Shown: positions 26,246 through 33,255 of the stretch, piece by piece
How positions within the stretch are numbered: the stretch's first letter is position 1
How the letters are laid out: each line of letters begins with the position of its first letter
Assembly (NCBI GenBank): GCA_958439205.1
Contig: OY288189.1
Location: 1,999,001-2,063,000 of the forward strand
DNA length: 64,000 nt
From: an uncultured Allorhizobium sp.
GTDB taxonomy: Bacteria; Pseudomonadota; Alphaproteobacteria; Rhizobiales; Rhizobiaceae
Reading direction: 5' to 3'
Translations under genes and position numbers: made by a program
Notes under the pieces: generated by a model
Databases searched by the model: none
Seen by the model: the letters and a program-made list of their open reading frames with translations, nothing else
What the model was told of the DNA's origin: nothing

Positions 26246-26454
26246 GGTCGATCCATTGTGTCAATCTCGACATTAAGTCTCGCAGGTTCACGGACCAAAA
26301 GGCATTGCCGTTTGCGACGAAAAACCGGCTCATCTGGAACAGTGGAAGAACCAAGAAGTTTTCATGCGGCAGGCATTCATCAACATTTGCTTTTAAAGCG
26401 CCTTGTGGCGCTTTGCTTACCCCCTGTTTACCAAAACCAGTCATTGATCGAAGT

Positions 26455-29400
26455 GTGAACAAAGATTTGATCCGGGGAAGCGACTTGCTCGAGCTAGTCC
26501 GCGACAAGATTGCCGCGCTTGACCTGCCTTCGTATGTCAAGGACAGCGAGCTGCGTTATGTCGCGGTCAATGCGCCCTTCGCCCGGCTTCACAATCTTGC
26601 TCCTGAAAGCTTCATCGGACGCAGCGACCGGGAAATCCTGGGTGTCGATCCGGATGGACTTCGCGACGACCGCGAGCGCCGCGTTTTGGTCTTCGGCGAA
26701 GAGGAGCAGTTGCATCTGCGCCCCGTATCCGGCGGCCCCTTGAACATCCTGCACATCGAGCGTTTTTTCGACGATGACGACCGGATGTATCTTTTCGGCT
26801 TCATGGAAGAGCGAGCGGCTGCGGTCGCACCTGAGATGACAGGTCCCTCGGCACCGCCTTCAGCCGAGGTCTATCAGGCCGTACTCGAACAATATCCGAT
26901 TGCCACCTATTTTCGCGGGGCGGACCACCGGCTGCTTTTTGCCAATCGCGCATATGCCGAGATGGTCGGGCGGCCGATCGAAGAGCTGCTTGGCCGCACC
27001 GAGCAGGAGATTTTTCCTGAACTCGGACAGGCCTATTACGAAGGCAATTGTCGGGTTCTGGAACGCGGCGTCACCGAAGAGGTTCAGGATAGCTTCATTC
27101 GCGCCGACGGTACATCCGTGCCAGCCCTTGCCCGCACCGGCGCCGTGACAGGACCGGACGGGGCTCGCTACATCGTCGGGTCCATTACCGATCTTTCGCC
27201 GCTCAGGCTGGAGCAGGAGAGGCTGAAGGCCGCGCGGCAGGAGTCGGAAGCGCTGCAATTGCAGCTGCAAAGCCTGATGGCCTCTCTTCCCGTCGGCATC
27301 TTCGTGCTTGACCCGGATCTGAGGATATCCTTTGCCAATCCGGCTGCGATCGAGATGTTGGAATTTGATCCGCCTGTGCCGGTGGAAGGCATGAACTACC
27401 GGGAATTGCTGATGCGGACGATGGCGCGTAGCATTTCCCGTATGCGGCCTGAAGAAATCGAGGAGCGCATTTCCTACCGCATCGAGCAGGTCACAGCGCT
27501 TGCCGAAGGGCCGCTGATCGATGTCAAGACTCCCTCCGGTCGTGCCCTGGCCGGCGGCAGCCGAAAGATCGAGGGTGGCCGCATCCTGATCACCTTCACC
27601 GACGTCTCCGACATGGTCCAGCGCGAGGAGGAGACGCTCCTCTACCGCGCGACGCTCGAGCAGATGCCGGTGCCGGTCTTCATTCGCGATATCAACCGGC
27701 GGATGATCTATGTGAATACCGCCTATGAGGAACTGCACGGCCAGCGGCGGGAAGATATTTACGGTCTGACCGAAGAAGAACTTTGGCCGGAAGACGGCCA
27801 GGTGATGAAGGAGGAGAACCTCCGCATCCTGGAAACCGGCGAACTGGTCGAGAAGAACCGCGAGGTCGTCGTCCGCGACGGCGAGGAAATCTCGGTCATC
27901 ACGCGGCTGAGCCGGATCACCACCGCCGAGAAGAAGCATTACATCGTCGGTTCGGTGAACGATATCTCCAACCTCAAGAAGGGCCAGCAGGCGCTCGTCG
28001 AAGCCCAGGCGCGTGCCGAGTCGCTCTACGACGATATCGTGTCGATGTTGCAGGTCATGCCTGTCGGCGTGGTGATCATTGATTCCGACTTCATGGTGGA
28101 ATTCGCCAATGAGAAATGCCGGGAAATCTGGCACTGGCCGGATGATGTGTCCCTGAGCGGGCAGAGCTTCCGTTCCTATTGCGAGCAGAACCACAAGCTC
28201 GGCTATGCCTGGCCCGGCATCGAATTCGAGGAAGGCTTCCGGCGTCGCATCGCACAGTTCGAAGCGCTTGAAGGCTCGCATGTCAACGAACTCGCCTATG
28301 ACGATGGCAAGTTCGTGCTGGCGACGATTACCCGCCTGCATGACCGCAAGATCCTGCTCACCTATTCAGACCTCACGGAGATGCGCCAGCGCGAGCGCGA
28401 CATCACGGCGGCGCAGCAGCAGCTGGAGCGGCTCGGCCTCTTCGTCCAGGAATCCATGCGCCTAATGTCCCAGGGCCTGATGATGGTCGAACAGGGCCGG
28501 GTTGCCGAGGTCAATCCCTCGTTCAGCCGCATCCTCGATCTGCCCGACGGCCTGCTGGTCGAGGGTGAAAGCTGGCGGCCGGTGTTCGAATATTGCGCGG
28601 CGCGCGGCGATTTCGGTGCGGACGCGCCGGCGGTCCTGCAGCAGTGGCAATCGGCGCTGCAAAACGCAAACTCGGTTTCGACGAATTTCCTCGTTGCGGG
28701 CAAGACCTGGGTCAAGCTGGAAGCGACCTTCGGGCGTGATCGAAGCTGCGTGGTCGTGCTCACCGATTTCACCGAGCTCAAGGCCCGTGAAGCCGAGCTT
28801 GAAGTGCTGCTCGCGCGCAGCGAAGCTGCCGACAAGGCGAAGTCCGACTTCCTCGCCAATATGAGCCATGAAATCCGCACCCCGATGAATGGCGTGCTCG
28901 GCATGGCGGAACTCTTGTCCAAATCCGAGCTCGACAGCCGGCAGAAGACCTTCGTCGACATCATGGTGAAATCGGGCAATGCGTTGCTCACCATCATCAA
29001 TGACATCCTCGACTTCTCGAAGATCGATGCTGGCCAGTTGAAGCTCCGGAAGTCGCCCTTCGATCCGGTCGAAGCGATCGAGGATGTGGCAACGCTTCTG
29101 TCTGCCGCTGCCGCCGAGAAGGATATCGAACTGGTCGTCTCCGGAGACCAGAAGGTGATGCACACCTTCATGGGTGATCCTGGCCGTTTCCGGCAGATCG
29201 TCACGAACCTGCTCGGCAACGCCATCAAGTTCACCGAGAAGGGACATGTGCATGTCGAGGTCTCCGCTGAGACTGTCATGGATGGTCAGGCGATCCTGAA
29301 ACTGCGCATCGAAGACACCGGCATCGGTATTCCGGCGGAGATGCAGGCGAAGATCTTTGAGAAATTCTCCCAGGTGGACACCTCTTCGACCCGCCGTCAC

Positions 29401-30477
29401 GAGGGAACCGGTCTTGGTCTCGCGATCACGGCTGGTCTTGTCCGTCTGTTCGGCGGCAAGCTGGATGTCGAATCAGAAGTTGGCCGGGGTTCGGCGTTTA
29501 CGGTCGAGCTGCCGCTTGCGATCGTTGCGGAACGCCGGGGGCAAAAGGAGCTGCCGGCGACGGTCAAGGATGCGCGGGTGCTCGTCATCGACGACAATGC
29601 CGTCAATCGCCGGATCATCACCGAGCAGTTGAGCATGTGGGGCTTTGACGGGCTCGCGGTTCCCGATGGACCGACAGGGATCGAAATTCTGAAAGCTGCC
29701 CATGCTGAAGGACTGTCGATCGACGTCGTCGTCATCGACTACCAGATGCCCGACATCAACGGCATTGATGTGGCGAAGGCGATCCGCAGCGACAGGCGCT
29801 ATGACGACATCGCGCTGGTGTTCCTGACGTCGATGGACATGGTCGGCGACGACCGGCTGTTCGAGAGCCTGAAGATCCAGGCGCATCTGATGAAGCCGGC
29901 GCGGGCGAATGTGTTGCGTGGTGCAATCATTGATGTTGTGCGTACCGCTCGCGTGCACGGGGTGAACTCCGCCCGCCTGCGTCCCATGTCACCTTCGGCT
30001 TCGCTTGCTGCTGTTCGGCCGGCCTTGCCGGTTGAACCCGTTCCTGCGGCCCCAGTCTTTCATGATGACAGCGCACTCAGGGTCCTGATCGCCGAGGACA
30101 ATCCGGTCAACCAGATCGTCTTTCGGCAGATCCTGACCGGCAGCGGCATCGCCTATCGCATCGTCGGCAATGGCGAGGAGGCCGTCGAGGCCTGGCGCAG
30201 CGAGCCACCGGACTTGATCCTGATGGATGTCTCGATGCCGGTCATGAACGGCCATCAGGCAACGGGCATGATCCGCAGCGAAGAGGCCCGTCGCGGCGGT
30301 TATCGCATTCCGATCATCGGCGTCACCGCCCATGCGCTGGAAAGCGACCGTGAGGCCTGCCTTGCGGCGGGCATGGATGATTATCTCTCCAAGCCGATTT
30401 CGCCGGAGCTCCTGATGCGCAAGATCGAGCAGTGGAGCGGCAGGCCGGTCGCGGCTGCGGCCAGCGCCGAGGGTTGA
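26455..30477 (+). CDS. Multi-PAS hybrid sensor histidine kinase with two receiver domains
   Basis: About 1340 residues, soluble (no clear membrane helix). About six PAS-like sensor modules fill residues ~10-770, several with the I-V-G-S-[IV]-x-D-[IL] exit motif. The HisKA phospho-acceptor is in FLANMSHEIRTPMNG (His near 805). The HATPase has NLLGNAIKFTEKG, EDTGIGIP and GTGLGLAI. Two receivers follow: the first with DDNAVNR, VVIDYQMPD and LMKP; the second with AEDNPVNQ, LMDVSMPVMNG and LSKP, both apparently intact. Start uncertain: I use GTG 26455, but TTG 26305 or a TTG downstream of GGGGAAG are possible. No response regulator gene is adjacent, and no input signal is evident. Confidence 0.92.
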   Translation: MNKDLIRGSDLLELVRDKIAALDLPSYVKDSELRYVAVNAPFARLHNLAPESFIGRSDREILGVDPDGLRDDRERRVLVFGEEEQLHLRPVSGGPLNILHIERFFDDDDRMYLFGFMEERAAAVAPEMTGPSAPPSAEVYQAVLEQYPIATYFRGADHRLLFANRAYAEMVGRPIEELLGRTEQEIFPELGQAYYEGNCRVLERGVTEEVQDSFIRADGTSVPALARTGAVTGPDGARYIVGSITDLSPLRLEQERLKAARQESEALQLQLQSLMASLPVGIFVLDPDLRISFANPAAIEMLEFDPPVPVEGMNYRELLMRTMARSISRMRPEEIEERISYRIEQVTALAEGPLIDVKTPSGRALAGGSRKIEGGRILITFTDVSDMVQREEETLLYRATLEQMPVPVFIRDINRRMIYVNTAYEELHGQRREDIYGLTEEELWPEDGQVMKEENLRILETGELVEKNREVVVRDGEEISVITRLSRITTAEKKHYIVGSVNDISNLKKGQQALVEAQARAESLYDDIVSMLQVMPVGVVIIDSDFMVEFANEKCREIWHWPDDVSLSGQSFRSYCEQNHKLGYAWPGIEFEEGFRRRIAQFEALEGSHVNELAYDDGKFVLATITRLHDRKILLTYSDLTEMRQRERDITAAQQQLERLGLFVQESMRLMSQGLMMVEQGRVAEVNPSFSRILDLPDGLLVEGESWRPVFEYCAARGDFGADAPAVLQQWQSALQNANSVSTNFLVAGKTWVKLEATFGRDRSCVVVLTDFTELKAREAELEVLLARSEAADKAKSDFLANMSHEIRTPMNGVLGMAELLSKSELDSRQKTFVDIMVKSGNALLTIINDILDFSKIDAGQLKLRKSPFDPVEAIEDVATLLSAAAAEKDIELVVSGDQKVMHTFMGDPGRFRQIVTNLLGNAIKFTEKGHVHVEVSAETVMDGQAILKLRIEDTGIGIPAEMQAKIFEKFSQVDTSSTRRHEGTGLGLAITAGLVRLFGGKLDVESEVGRGSAFTVELPLAIVAERRGQKELPATVKDARVLVIDDNAVNRRIITEQLSMWGFDGLAVPDGPTGIEILKAAHAEGLSIDVVVIDYQMPDINGIDVAKAIRSDRRYDDIALVFLTSMDMVGDDRLFESLKIQAHLMKPARANVLRGAIIDVVRTARVHGVNSARLRPMSPSASLAAVRPALPVEPVPAAPVFHDDSALRVLIAEDNPVNQIVFRQILTGSGIAYRIVGNGEEAVEAWRSEPPDLILMDVSMPVMNGHQATGMIRSEEARRGGYRIPIIGVTAHALESDREACLAAGMDDYLSKPISPELLMRKIEQWSGRPVAAAASAEG

Positions 30478-31209
30478 TCAGGCCGGACGCCTGACACCAC
30501 AGAGCATTTCACGCTTTCCCGCAAAGCCGGGGCGCCGTTCGACATCAAAGCCGGTGGCGGTCAGATTGCGCCTGACGAAGCCCGCTGCGGCGTAAGTCGC
30601 GAAGCTGCCGCCCTCTCTCGTCGTGTCGTGGACCCGCTGCATCAGTTCCGCCGACCACATGGCGCTGTTGCGCGAGGGCGCAAAGCCGTCGAGGAACCAG
30701 GCATCAAAGGTCAGCGTGCTTGCCGTCAAGTTTTCGAGGGCATCGCCGCAGACGACGGACAGCCGGGTCTGTGCGTCGAGGCCAACCGTGACCACGCCGG
30801 AGGGATCTGCCGGCCAGAGCGAGACCAGCGCCTGCCGCTCGGCATCGATCTCCGGCCAGCGGGAGAGGGCGCGGTCGATCTCTTCCGCCTGCATGGGGAA
30901 TAGCTCGAAGGAGACGAAATGGAGTTTGGCACCGGTACGGCGATGCTCCTTCCATTGGCGCCAGGTCTCGCAGGCATTCAGCCCGGTGCCGAAGCCGAGT
31001 TCGCCGATGGTGAAGGTCTCTGCCGTTTGCCAGCGCTCCGGCAGGCCGTTGCCGGCGAGGAAGACATGGCCGCATTCCAGCCGGCCGTCCGTCTGGCAAT
31101 AAAAGTGATCGCCAAAGGCGGTGGAAAAGGGCATATCGCCGTCGTGCCAGGCGAGCGGTGCCTGGGTGTCGCCGGTGCCTGGCGGATAATTTGAATGGGT
31201 CATGGCCAT
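30478..31209 (-). CDS. mnmD: tRNA 5-methylaminomethyl-2-thiouridine methyltransferase (MnmD / MnmC N-terminal domain)
   Basis: A 243-residue SAM-dependent methyltransferase equivalent to the N-terminal domain of E. coli MnmC, which makes the final methylation of mnm5s2U34 in certain tRNAs. ETFTIGELGFGTGLNACETW is the SAM-binding motif I region; LTFDAWFLDGFAPSRNSAMW is the conserved D-G-F-[AS]-P motif of the family. In E. coli this domain is fused to an FAD oxidase; here it stands alone. Its start overlaps that of the divergent FAD oxidoreductase gene. The ATG at 31201-31203 is an alternative start. Confidence 0.9.
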   Translation of the reverse strand: MAMTHSNYPPGTGDTQAPLAWHDGDMPFSTAFGDHFYCQTDGRLECGHVFLAGNGLPERWQTAETFTIGELGFGTGLNACETWRQWKEHRRTGAKLHFVSFELFPMQAEEIDRALSRWPEIDAERQALVSLWPADPSGVVTVGLDAQTRLSVVCGDALENLTASTLTFDAWFLDGFAPSRNSAMWSAELMQRVHDTTREGGSFATYAAAGFVRRNLTATGFDVERRPGFAGKREMLCGVRRPA

Positions 31210-31210
31210 G
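31201..31210. promoter_or_regulatory. Palindromic shared start region of mnmD and FAD oxidoreductase
   Basis: CATGGCCATG is its own reverse complement, so both strands read ATGGCCATG. Each divergent gene can start at either ATG, and there is no intergenic DNA; each promoter must lie inside the other coding region. Confidence 0.8.
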
Positions 31211-32410
31211 TCCGATAAATCGGCAGCGATGTCAGGTCAATTGCGCGCCGATCTCGTGATCGTCGGCGGTGGCATCATGGGCCTCTGGGGGGCGCTGAAA
31301 GCCGAGCGTCGGGGTATCGAGACGATCCTGATCGACGGCGACAAAACGGGAAGCGGGGCCAGCGGCGGACTGCTCGGTGCGCTCATGGCGCATATGCCGG
31401 ATCGCTGGAACGAGAAGAAGCAGTTGCAGTTCGACGGCCTCTTGTCTCTGGAGGCGGAGATCGCCGAGCTTGAAGCCGAGACCGGTCTTTCGGCCGGCTA
31501 TCGCCGCTGCGGGCGGCTGATCCCGCTGCCGAAGCCGCATTTGCGGCCGATCGCCGAGCGGCATTCGCTGGAGGCGGAAACCAACTGGAACCAGCAGGGC
31601 AGGCGTTTCGAGTGGTCCGTCATTGAGCAAAGCCCGTTTGCCGACTGGCCATCGCAGCGCTTCACAGAGGCTGGCCTTGTCTATGACCGTTTCGCGGGGC
31701 GGGTATCGCCACGCGCGCTCACTGCGGCGATCCGAGCGCGCCTGGAGCGCACGGGCCGTGTGCGGATCCTCGAAGGGGTTGCCGTAAAGTCGATCGATGC
31801 CAGCGCGCGGCAGGTGGTGACAGCCGATGGGGCGTCTGTCGGTTTCGGTGATCTGCTGGTCGCGGCTGGCGTCGGCTCCTTTCCGGTGCTTCAATTGATC
31901 GGTCCGTCCGTCCGCAAACCGCTTGGCCGAGGCGTCAAGGGACAGGCGGCTCTGTTGAAGGTCGACCTTCCTGCCGATCTTCCCCTCGTTTATCTCGACG
32001 GTCTCTATGTCGTGCCGCATGAGGGCGGGCATGTCGCGATCGGCAGTACCAGCGAAAACAGTTTCGATGACCCGTTCTCAACGGATGCGCAGCTGGATGC
32101 CCTGATCGCCGAGGCGCGGGAGCTTGCACCGGTGCTGCAGCGAGCCAAAGTTGTCGAGCGCTGGGCGGGGCTGCGCCCCAAGGCGGTGGACCGGGATCCG
32201 ATGGTCGGTCCGCATCCGGATCATCCGCATATCCATGCGCTGACCGGCGGCTTCAAGGTGAGTTTCGGCATTGCCCATCTGCTGGCCGATGCTGCACTCG
32301 ATGCGATTGCCGGGCAGGCATTGCCGCTGCCTCACGGCTTCTCGCTTTCTCATCACGTTTCGGTGGCTGTTGGCCGACCAGTCGATGAGGAATTTACCGA
32401 AATACCCTGA
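31202..32410 (+). CDS. FAD-dependent oxidoreductase, MnmC oxidase-like
   Basis: A 402-residue protein of the DAO/glycine oxidase fold. The FAD-binding motif VIVGGGIMGLWGALKAE is at residues ~18-35, GAGVGSFP-like AAGVGSFPVLQ in the middle, and a C-terminal AGLRPKAVDRDPMVGP and TGGFKVSFGIA that bind the isoalloxazine side. Such oxidoreductases as the C-terminal half of MnmC remove the carboxymethyl group of cmnm5s2U. Tight divergent linkage to mnmD suggests it provides that activity here, though sequence alone cannot exclude an amino-acid oxidase. Confidence 0.82.
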   Translation: MAMSDKSAAMSGQLRADLVIVGGGIMGLWGALKAERRGIETILIDGDKTGSGASGGLLGALMAHMPDRWNEKKQLQFDGLLSLEAEIAELEAETGLSAGYRRCGRLIPLPKPHLRPIAERHSLEAETNWNQQGRRFEWSVIEQSPFADWPSQRFTEAGLVYDRFAGRVSPRALTAAIRARLERTGRVRILEGVAVKSIDASARQVVTADGASVGFGDLLVAAGVGSFPVLQLIGPSVRKPLGRGVKGQAALLKVDLPADLPLVYLDGLYVVPHEGGHVAIGSTSENSFDDPFSTDAQLDALIAEARELAPVLQRAKVVERWAGLRPKAVDRDPMVGPHPDHPHIHALTGGFKVSFGIAHLLADAALDAIAGQALPLPHGFSLSHHVSVAVGRPVDEEFTEIP

Positions 32411-32547
32411 AATCACGCGGATTCCTGCTGTGCAAAGGCCGAAAATCCTTTTGCCCGCTTCGTGATACTGTCATGCAAATCACCTATCCACCGGGTTGTA
32501 ACGGAAACTGCTAAAGTTCCGAAGCGAGCCAGTGTGAGGTGCTCGAC

Positions 32548-33255
32548 ATGCGCTATGCCATCTGCTTTACGCCGCCTGCCCGTGATCCGCTTGCCGATGC
32601 AGCGGCGCGCTGGCTCGGTCGCAACGTGTTTTCCGGCGAGGCGGAAGAGCATCCGGGGCTGAAAGGTCTCGGCGTGCACGAGATTGCCTTTCACACGGCG
32701 CTGCCCCGTCGCTTCGGCTTTCATGCCACCTTCAAGGCGCCATTCCGTCTGAGCGAAGGATCCACCGAACCGGCTTTGCTGCGGGAGTTGATGCATTTTG
32801 CCGGTCGCATGGAGCCGGTTATGCTGCAGGGACTGACGGTCGGTCGCATCGGTGACGTCTACGGCCTCATTCTGGAGCGGCCTTGCCCCTCGGTCGACTA
32901 TCTCGCAGCCTCGATCGTTCAGGCCTTTGACGGTTTCCGCGCCCCGCTTTCCGAAGTCGAGATCGAGCGGCGCAATCCCGAGCGGCTGTCGGCACCGCAG
33001 TTCAGCAATCTCAGCCGCTGGGGACATCCTTACGTGATGGACGAGTTTCGCTTTCACATGACGCTGACAGGGCCGCTTCTGGCGCGGGATTTCCCGCGCA
33101 TAGAACAGGGACTGAAAGCCCATTTCGATCCCGTTCTCGCTGAGCCTGTCGTGGTGACCAATCTCGCGCTGTTCGTCGAGACTGAGCGGGGCGCGCCGTT
33201 TACCGTGCATTCGCTGCATCCTCTGGGGCGGGTTTCCAGCCGCAAGATTGCCTGA
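32548..33255 (+). CDS. DUF1045 / 2H-phosphoesterase-like protein
   Basis: A 235-residue protein with two H-x-[ST] type motifs, RFGFHATFKAPF near residue 55 and DEFRFHMTLTG near 170, the hallmark of the 2H phosphoesterase fold and of the DUF1045 family, members of which neighbour phosphonate genes elsewhere. Here no phosphonate genes are visible; instead puuE follows 91 bp later. I used the ATG at 32548, preceded by GAGGTG, rather than the GTG three codons upstream. Substrate unknown. Confidence 0.85.
   Translation: MRYAICFTPPARDPLADAAARWLGRNVFSGEAEEHPGLKGLGVHEIAFHTALPRRFGFHATFKAPFRLSEGSTEPALLRELMHFAGRMEPVMLQGLTVGRIGDVYGLILERPCPSVDYLAASIVQAFDGFRAPLSEVEIERRNPERLSAPQFSNLSRWGHPYVMDEFRFHMTLTGPLLARDFPRIEQGLKAHFDPVLAEPVVVTNLALFVETERGAPFTVHSLHPLGRVSSRKIA

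Follow-up and report, generated by a model that had tools for sequence, protein, structure and literature searches.

A gene for an mnmC2-like tRNA methyltransferase and a gene for an FAD-dependent oxidase of the DAO superfamily, hereafter ox, lie head to head in the 64-kb stretch of DNA analysed here, to which we refer as the window (Table 1). Read directly from the window, positions 31201-31210 carry the sequence CATGGCCATG, which is identical to its own reverse complement. In the list of open reading frames, the minus-strand frame 30478-31209 (243 aa) and the plus-strand frame 31202-32410 (402 aa) both begin within this palindrome; the two frames overlap, and there is therefore no intergenic space. 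In-frame ATGs are found inside the palindrome at 31202 and 31208 on the plus strand and at 31209 and 31203 on the minus strand. Both observations, start codons on both strands within the palindrome and the lack of an intergenic space, bear out what the original prediction had stated for this locus.

The gene pair is flanked by a large hybrid histidine kinase gene (26305-30477), encoding several PAS domains and two receiver domains, whose true start probably lies downstream of the listed TTG, and by a DUF1045 gene (32539-33255). The product of the latter matches the 'phosphonate metabolism' model TIGR03223 with 242.8 bits, just below the cut-off of 248.95; the gene adjoins a polysaccharide-deacetylase-like gene, allantoinase-like by eye, and no evident phosphonate gene.

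Table 1. Window coordinates of the gene pair and of the features at its junction
Feature	Position	Strand	Remarks
mnmC2-like tRNA methyltransferase (MnmC(m)), 241 aa from conserved start	30478..31203	-	NF033855, PF05430; alternative outer ATG 31209
FAD-dependent DAO-superfamily oxidase 'ox', proposed stand-in MnmC(o)	31202..32410	+	PF01266; alternative start 31208
10-bp palindrome CATGGCCATG	31201..31210		pointed out in the original prediction; unconserved
CATG common to both genes	31201..31204		conserved core of junction; candidate in 77/80 named relatives
-35-like TTGACC of methyltransferase gene	31235..31240	-	inside ox ORF
-10-like TATCGG	31212..31217	-	17 nt after -35-like box, 8 nt before methyltransferase ATG 31203

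The junction and its promoter-like element

We compared the junction across three sets of loci, which share species and are hence not independent: 80 named loci, all from Rhizobiaceae (the best 80 of at least 553 related stretches), 29 family loci, one per genus, consisting of the window's own and 28 others (best 30 of 40; L022, which has no methyltransferase gene, was excluded), and 29 loci from further species of the genus (the best 29 among 58 genomes with a match). The two genes are divergent throughout (80/80 named, 29/29 family and 29/29 genus loci), and a CATG usable for both starts is present in 77/80, 21/29 and 18/29 loci, respectively. The palindrome, in contrast, is kept in 4/80 named relatives, in 4/29 genus loci and in 1/29 family loci, the sole case being the window's own. 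What is conserved at this junction is the tight head-to-head arrangement and not the 10-bp palindrome, which is incidental. As a string it is also unremarkable, because at least one copy of the 10-mer, which occurs once in the window, is found in 13 of 100 shuffles. A role of the palindrome as a functional element was rejected, since it is missing from most relatives and since the outer methyltransferase ATG would fall upstream of the expected transcription start.

As this outer ATG (31209) is missing in the nearest relative, L062, whose methyltransferase is 95% identical, 31203 is the most likely start of the methyltransferase (MTHSNYPP, 241 aa). For the oxidase, the most likely start is 31202 or 31208; the outer ATG is missing in L068, where the equivalent of 31208 is kept. 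If both genes start at the shared CATG, their start codons overlap by 2 bp.

Just inside the ox gene, overlying its codons 4-13, a plus-strand GATA-N18-GTCAA was found in 80/80 named and 19/29 family loci, counts that are inflated by kinship. On the minus strand, this element reads TTGAC-N18-TATC, with the consensus TTGACC-N17-TATCSG; dereplication to 56 of the 99 sequences yielded TCATG-N5-AGCSGATARTCC-N14-GGTCAATC. We scanned with any spacing of 12-22 permitted, taking the value closest to 18 if several fitted; the spacing was exactly 18 in 99/99 loci having the element, which lies 8 nt before the nearest methyltransferase ATG in 70/80 named loci. As a control, a GATA/GTCAA pair at any spacing of 12-22 was seen in 1 of 1308 stretches inside ox genes, and TTGACC-N16-18-TATCSG occurs once in the window, at the junction, and in 1 of 100 shuffles. 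The N-terminal Gly-Gln codons of ox are GGTCAA in 71/74 cases, compared with CAA for 164/783 glutamines and GGT for 466/2845 glycines further along the ox genes, a bias that, like the constancy of the element, is partly due to shared ancestry.

The scan was negative in 10/29 family loci. These include L019, which was scanned from another start codon and in which the element is recognisable by eye with the same spacing; the count was left at 19/29. In L019 the frame from the CATG stops and ox apparently starts after the element, which is nevertheless kept. GTCAA is missing at the start of the ox gene of L203, the locus of a genome (G044) that has no methyltransferase gene.

Collectively, these sequence features suggest a predicted promoter of the methyltransferase gene inside ox, which would give rise to a leaderless or nearly leaderless mRNA. 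For S. meliloti, one study reports leaderless mRNAs starting with AUG, as well as poorly conserved -10 regions of sigma-70 promoters (PMC3616915). Two other roles of the element, as an operator bound by a regulator of the two genes or as a coding constraint on the ox N-terminus, seem unlikely to us compared with that of a sigma-70 promoter. Such a reading would fit the -10-like half, a poor match to TATAAT, and a promoter/terminator scan, which found nothing, its promoter rule requiring T at the last -10 position; poor conservation of the -10 region is, however, what is reported for S. meliloti. The single spacing, the constant distance from the methyltransferase start in most named loci, the position of the element before the apparent ox start in L019 and the lack of GTCAA where the methyltransferase is missing all argue against it, as does the low-confidence prediction of the ox N-terminus (residues 1-11 of the structural model have a pLDDT below 50).

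The original prediction had placed each promoter in the opposite coding sequence. For the methyltransferase, this agrees with the promoter-like element in ox; on the ox side, it found less backing, the profile upstream of the ox start showing little conservation on average apart from a few columns of moderate conservation (e.g. A 73%, T 84%), which may reflect methyltransferase codons or an oxidase signal. At this locus, the start codons of two head-to-head genes can share a CATG, and the methyltransferase promoter apparently lies in the first codons of the partner gene, placing the junction DNA under coding and regulatory demands simultaneously.

Identity and descent of the two proteins

Judged by a curated model, the minus-strand gene encodes a stand-alone MnmC2/MnmC(m) methyltransferase, matching NF033855 with 258.8 bits (cut-off 136) and PF05430 with 135.2 bits (cut-off 22). 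Its residues F73, D174, G175, P178 and K232 are invariant in 14/14 aligned rows and were matched by eye in alignments to F67, D178, G179, P182 and K236 of E. coli MnmC, which are listed among SAM-site and RNA-binding residues in Table 2 of PMC3648344. In a tree, the methyltransferases of Rhizobiaceae and of a second alphaproteobacterial family (f24) are separated from the fused-type enzymes with support of 99/99; a single solo row (G357) falls with the former.

The assignment of ox is less straightforward. It matches PF01266 with 167.9 bits (cut-off 27.9) and falls below the cut-offs of both the MnmC1 model TIGR03197 (76.2-77.3 bits, cut-off 174.2) and the ThiO model TIGR02352 (128.8 bits, cut-off 250.8), scoring higher with the latter; both models match 15/15 scanned ox family members at E <= 0.001. 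A second DAO protein of the same genome (C1:1898797-1899444) reaches 83.7 bits with the MnmC1 model over profile positions 2-208, slightly more than ox, and sub-cut-off MnmC1 matches are present in 74 of 101 genomes of the family, so that ox does not stand out by sequence alone. What speaks for ox is its genomic place and not its MnmC1 score. We also considered that ox could be the genome's ThiO and rejected this, because a separate ThiO is encoded at C1:582111-583055 with 262.1 bits, above the TIGR02352 cut-off; ox is therefore not the thiamin enzyme.

Residues R325, W321, G22, G24 and G27 are invariant in 15/15 ox rows of the alignment. R325 belongs to a WAGLRP motif whose arginine is common to ox and glycine oxidase, and presumably it holds the carboxylate as in the latter; by motif, it would be equivalent to R567 of E. 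coli MnmC (PMC3648344). The structural model of ox has a mean pLDDT of 89.7. Its nearest folds are glycine oxidases (Z 42.6), and MnmC is matched at Z 35.3-35.6, the match to MnmC 3pvc having a Z of 35.6, and it displays the FAD-binding DAO fold together with R325. A fold in common with glycine oxidase or MnmC shows no function.

The trees leave two routes of descent. A first tree of 71 rows seemingly placed ox apart from MnmC1 (SH-aLRT 97). In the AU test on the same set, the joining of ox and MnmC1 into one clade was not rejected (p 0.539), and the tree with both together was 2.60 log units better; because this test did not back the first tree, we do not claim an independent origin of ox as shown. 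In a second tree, built from 46 of the 71 rows after dropping 25, long branches among them, MnmC1 (15 rows: fused, solo and E. coli) forms a 100/100 group without ox, and the ox rows group at 92/79. The motif GASG...GAL.P, found in 15/19 ox, 2/23 MnmC1 and 0/29 other sequences, is weak as a link between ox and MnmC1. By these trees, ox is not nested within the MnmC1 rows, and it would be either distantly descended from MnmC1 or recruited separately from among the glycine-oxidase-like enzymes.

On the first of these alternatives, ox would truly descend from the MnmC1 domain, having split off from the fused protein and evolved fast, and the locus would be a strict split MnmC. This is compatible with the explanation that we prefer below, and the AU test, the better likelihood of the joint tree and the fold common to ox and MnmC speak in its favour. 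We nonetheless hold it to be somewhat unlikely, as the 100/100 MnmC1 group leaves ox out, ox is matched better by the ThiO model than by the MnmC1 model, and the paired methyltransferases, too, fall outside the fused-type group. A clear fragment of fused MnmC is unsupported for ox, though the AU test leaves room for it. Of the 'split MnmC' originally proposed, the methyltransferase half has thus held up, while the oxidase half lies under the MnmC1 cut-off and outside the MnmC1 clade. The partner is indeed an FAD oxidase, and in the genome survey described below its presence goes with that of the methyltransferase; a functional split of MnmC between two genes is plausible.

Distribution in Rhizobiaceae and other alphaproteobacteria

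We searched 101 genomes of Rhizobiaceae, one per genus, for ox (E <= 1e-20) and the methyltransferase (E <= 1e-10) and found them in 40/101 and 42/101 genomes, respectively. Both are encoded in 39 genomes, the methyltransferase only in three (G034, G056, G082), ox only in one (G044) and neither in 58; where both are present, they are adjacent and divergent in 39/39 genomes. The pairing of ox and methyltransferase is well supported, with a Fisher's p of 3e-23 for their co-occurrence, a value that ignores kinship. mnmG (E <= 1e-50) is present in 99/101 family genomes and in the window's own genome, and an mnmG tree could be built for 97 genomes, leaving out G053 and G066 (no match) and G043 and G077 (partial matches) and retaining one row, L333_G004, with a branch length of 10 and probably a wrong frame. 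On this tree, the methyltransferase changes seven times and ox nine times. There are two independent contrasts on starred branches (seven on all branches), too few for a test; ox goes the same way as the methyltransferase in 1.8 of the two starred contrasts on average.

Both genes are missing from one starred group on the mnmG tree, which comprises six genomes; five of these measure 1.1-2.0 Mb. In Bartonella henselae tRNA, one study reports cmnm5s2U as present and mnm5s2U as not (PMC10965804). The genome with ox and no methyltransferase (G044, locus L203) measures 1.5 Mb; if ox works as proposed, its end product would be nm5(s2)U.

With the best 16-18 candidates scored per genome in the DAO-family searches, none of the 101 family genomes yielded an MnmC1 above the cut-off, the E. 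coli control being positive. An MnmL route in the family was also considered and dropped, as TIGR01212, which we take to be the MnmL model, had no match at E <= 1e-20 in any of these 101 genomes, again with a positive E. coli control.

For the three of 42 genomes in which the methyltransferase is present and ox was not found (G034, locus L220; G056, L221; G082, L184), we took as alternative oxidase of each the ThiO-like DAO protein that scored highest without reaching ThiO level. These three proteins form a 100/100 group in the 46-protein tree. In G082, the alternative oxidase match follows downstream of that to the methyltransferase, on the same strand and at a distance of 5 nt; in G034 and G056, it is on another contig than the methyltransferase. 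This suggests a possible second replacement, of ox by a different DAO oxidase, in these genomes, in a setting where DAO proteins are many.

Across the class, the methyltransferase was found in 49/289 genomes, the window's included. Among the other 48, it resides in an ORF of at least 513 aa (fused type) in 33, of which 28 match E. coli MnmC1. A separate MnmC1-like ORF beside or overlapping the methyltransferase is present in 5/48, and a divergent ox, as in Rhizobiaceae, in 3/48, all of family f24 (G181, G313, G411); in 7/48, the stretch read contains neither an MnmC1-like ORF nor a divergent ox, and one of these seven (G242) encodes an ox relative elsewhere, as found in a class-wide ox search scoring the best six candidates per genome. 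In the f24 loci (L190, L191, L192), the divergent pair is present, and the shared CATG and GATA-N18-GTCAA are both missing (3/3). As far as sequence models can tell, MnmC1 is not missing from all alphaproteobacteria; among the Rhizobiaceae searched, no MnmC1 was recognised. In the account of Cho et al. 2023, mnmC(o) is absent in alphaproteobacteria and an MnmC(o)-like enzyme is to be expected (PMC9976899), and PMC3648344 mentions bifunctional MnmC in some alphaproteobacteria. Among titles and abstract beginnings of the open-licence literature searched, we found no paper naming an alphaproteobacterial MnmC(o).

A proposed route to mnm5(s2)U34 and its relation to known systems

The precursor cmnm5(s2)U34 is made by MnmE and MnmG. 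We propose, with a probability of roughly 0.7, that in Rhizobiaceae the gene pair accounts for the two final steps leading to mnm5(s2)U34, with ox replacing canonical MnmC1 and the methyltransferase promoter lying within ox. The FAD oxidase would oxidise the N-substituted glycine side chain, its carboxylate held by R325, so as to release nm5(s2)U34 in the manner of the MnmC(o) reaction, and the methyltransferase would then add a methyl group from SAM; ox would thus occupy the place of canonical MnmC1. The methyltransferase gene would be transcribed from a promoter inside the first ox codons, with its mRNA beginning at the shared CATG. We infer the substrate of ox, the activity of the promoter and the leaderless state of the mRNA, and we regard ox as the best candidate for the missing alphaproteobacterial MnmC(o).

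One could also ask whether ox acts on tRNA at all. It might be a small-molecule amine or amino-acid oxidase, acting on glycine, sarcosine or another N-substituted glycine, which inherited its position, while the methyltransferase uses nm5U that MnmEG makes with ammonium. Indeed, the best sequence and fold matches of ox are glycine oxidases, and MnmEG can use ammonium to make nm5U directly, as stated in PMC9976899, so that a methyltransferase could do without an oxidase partner. This explanation appears quite improbable to us, considering that the presence and absence of ox follow those of the methyltransferase, if with few independent contrasts, that the same divergent pair recurs in a second family (f24), and that a true ThiO is encoded elsewhere in the genome.

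In the reading that we favour, with ox as the MnmC(o) enzyme, a gap in the known mnm5U pathway receives a concrete candidate enzyme, and one that is present in culturable rhizobia, such as R. johnstonii 3841 (locus L302). A bolder generalisation, to which we give slightly less than even odds, is that Rhizobiaceae and one further family of alphaproteobacteria rely for the MnmC(o) step on tRNA-modifying FAD oxidases of a family that has so far gone unrecognised and does not derive from MnmC1, and that this oxidase was replaced again, by a different DAO oxidase, in G034, G056 and G082. If true, the alphaproteobacterial mnm5U gap would have been filled by repeated recruitment of glycine-oxidase-like enzymes.

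Several known systems bear a partial resemblance to this arrangement. Glycine oxidase ThiO (4ysh, 1ng3) is the best fold match of ox (Z 42.6) and has the WAGLRP arginine in common with it; ox, however, lies under the ThiO cut-off and on a separate branch, and the same genome also encodes a true ThiO. MnmL and MnmM of Bacillus and relatives constitute another route from cmnm5s2U to mnm5s2U without MnmC, according to PMC9976899 for MnmM and PMC12548931 for MnmL. In contrast to that route, the methyltransferase here is of the MnmC2 type, and TIGR01212 is unmatched at E <= 1e-20 in the 101 family genomes. The stand-alone MnmC2/DUF752 protein of Aquifex aeolicus (PDB 3vyw; match E 4e-9) is likewise a methyltransferase without a fused oxidase, a likeness drawn from the methyltransferase protein alone, whereas the enzyme described here has a conserved divergent ox partner. 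The bifunctional MnmC of E. coli and Y. pestis (PDB 3ps9, 3awi, 3pvc, 3sgl) combines a methyltransferase of the same family as ours with an FAD oxidase fold like that of ox (Z 35.3-35.6), and ox presumably acts one step before the methyltransferase. Compared with this fused enzyme, the two functions would here be divided between two divergent genes, the oxidase scoring below the MnmC1 cut-off and branching outside the MnmC1 clade.
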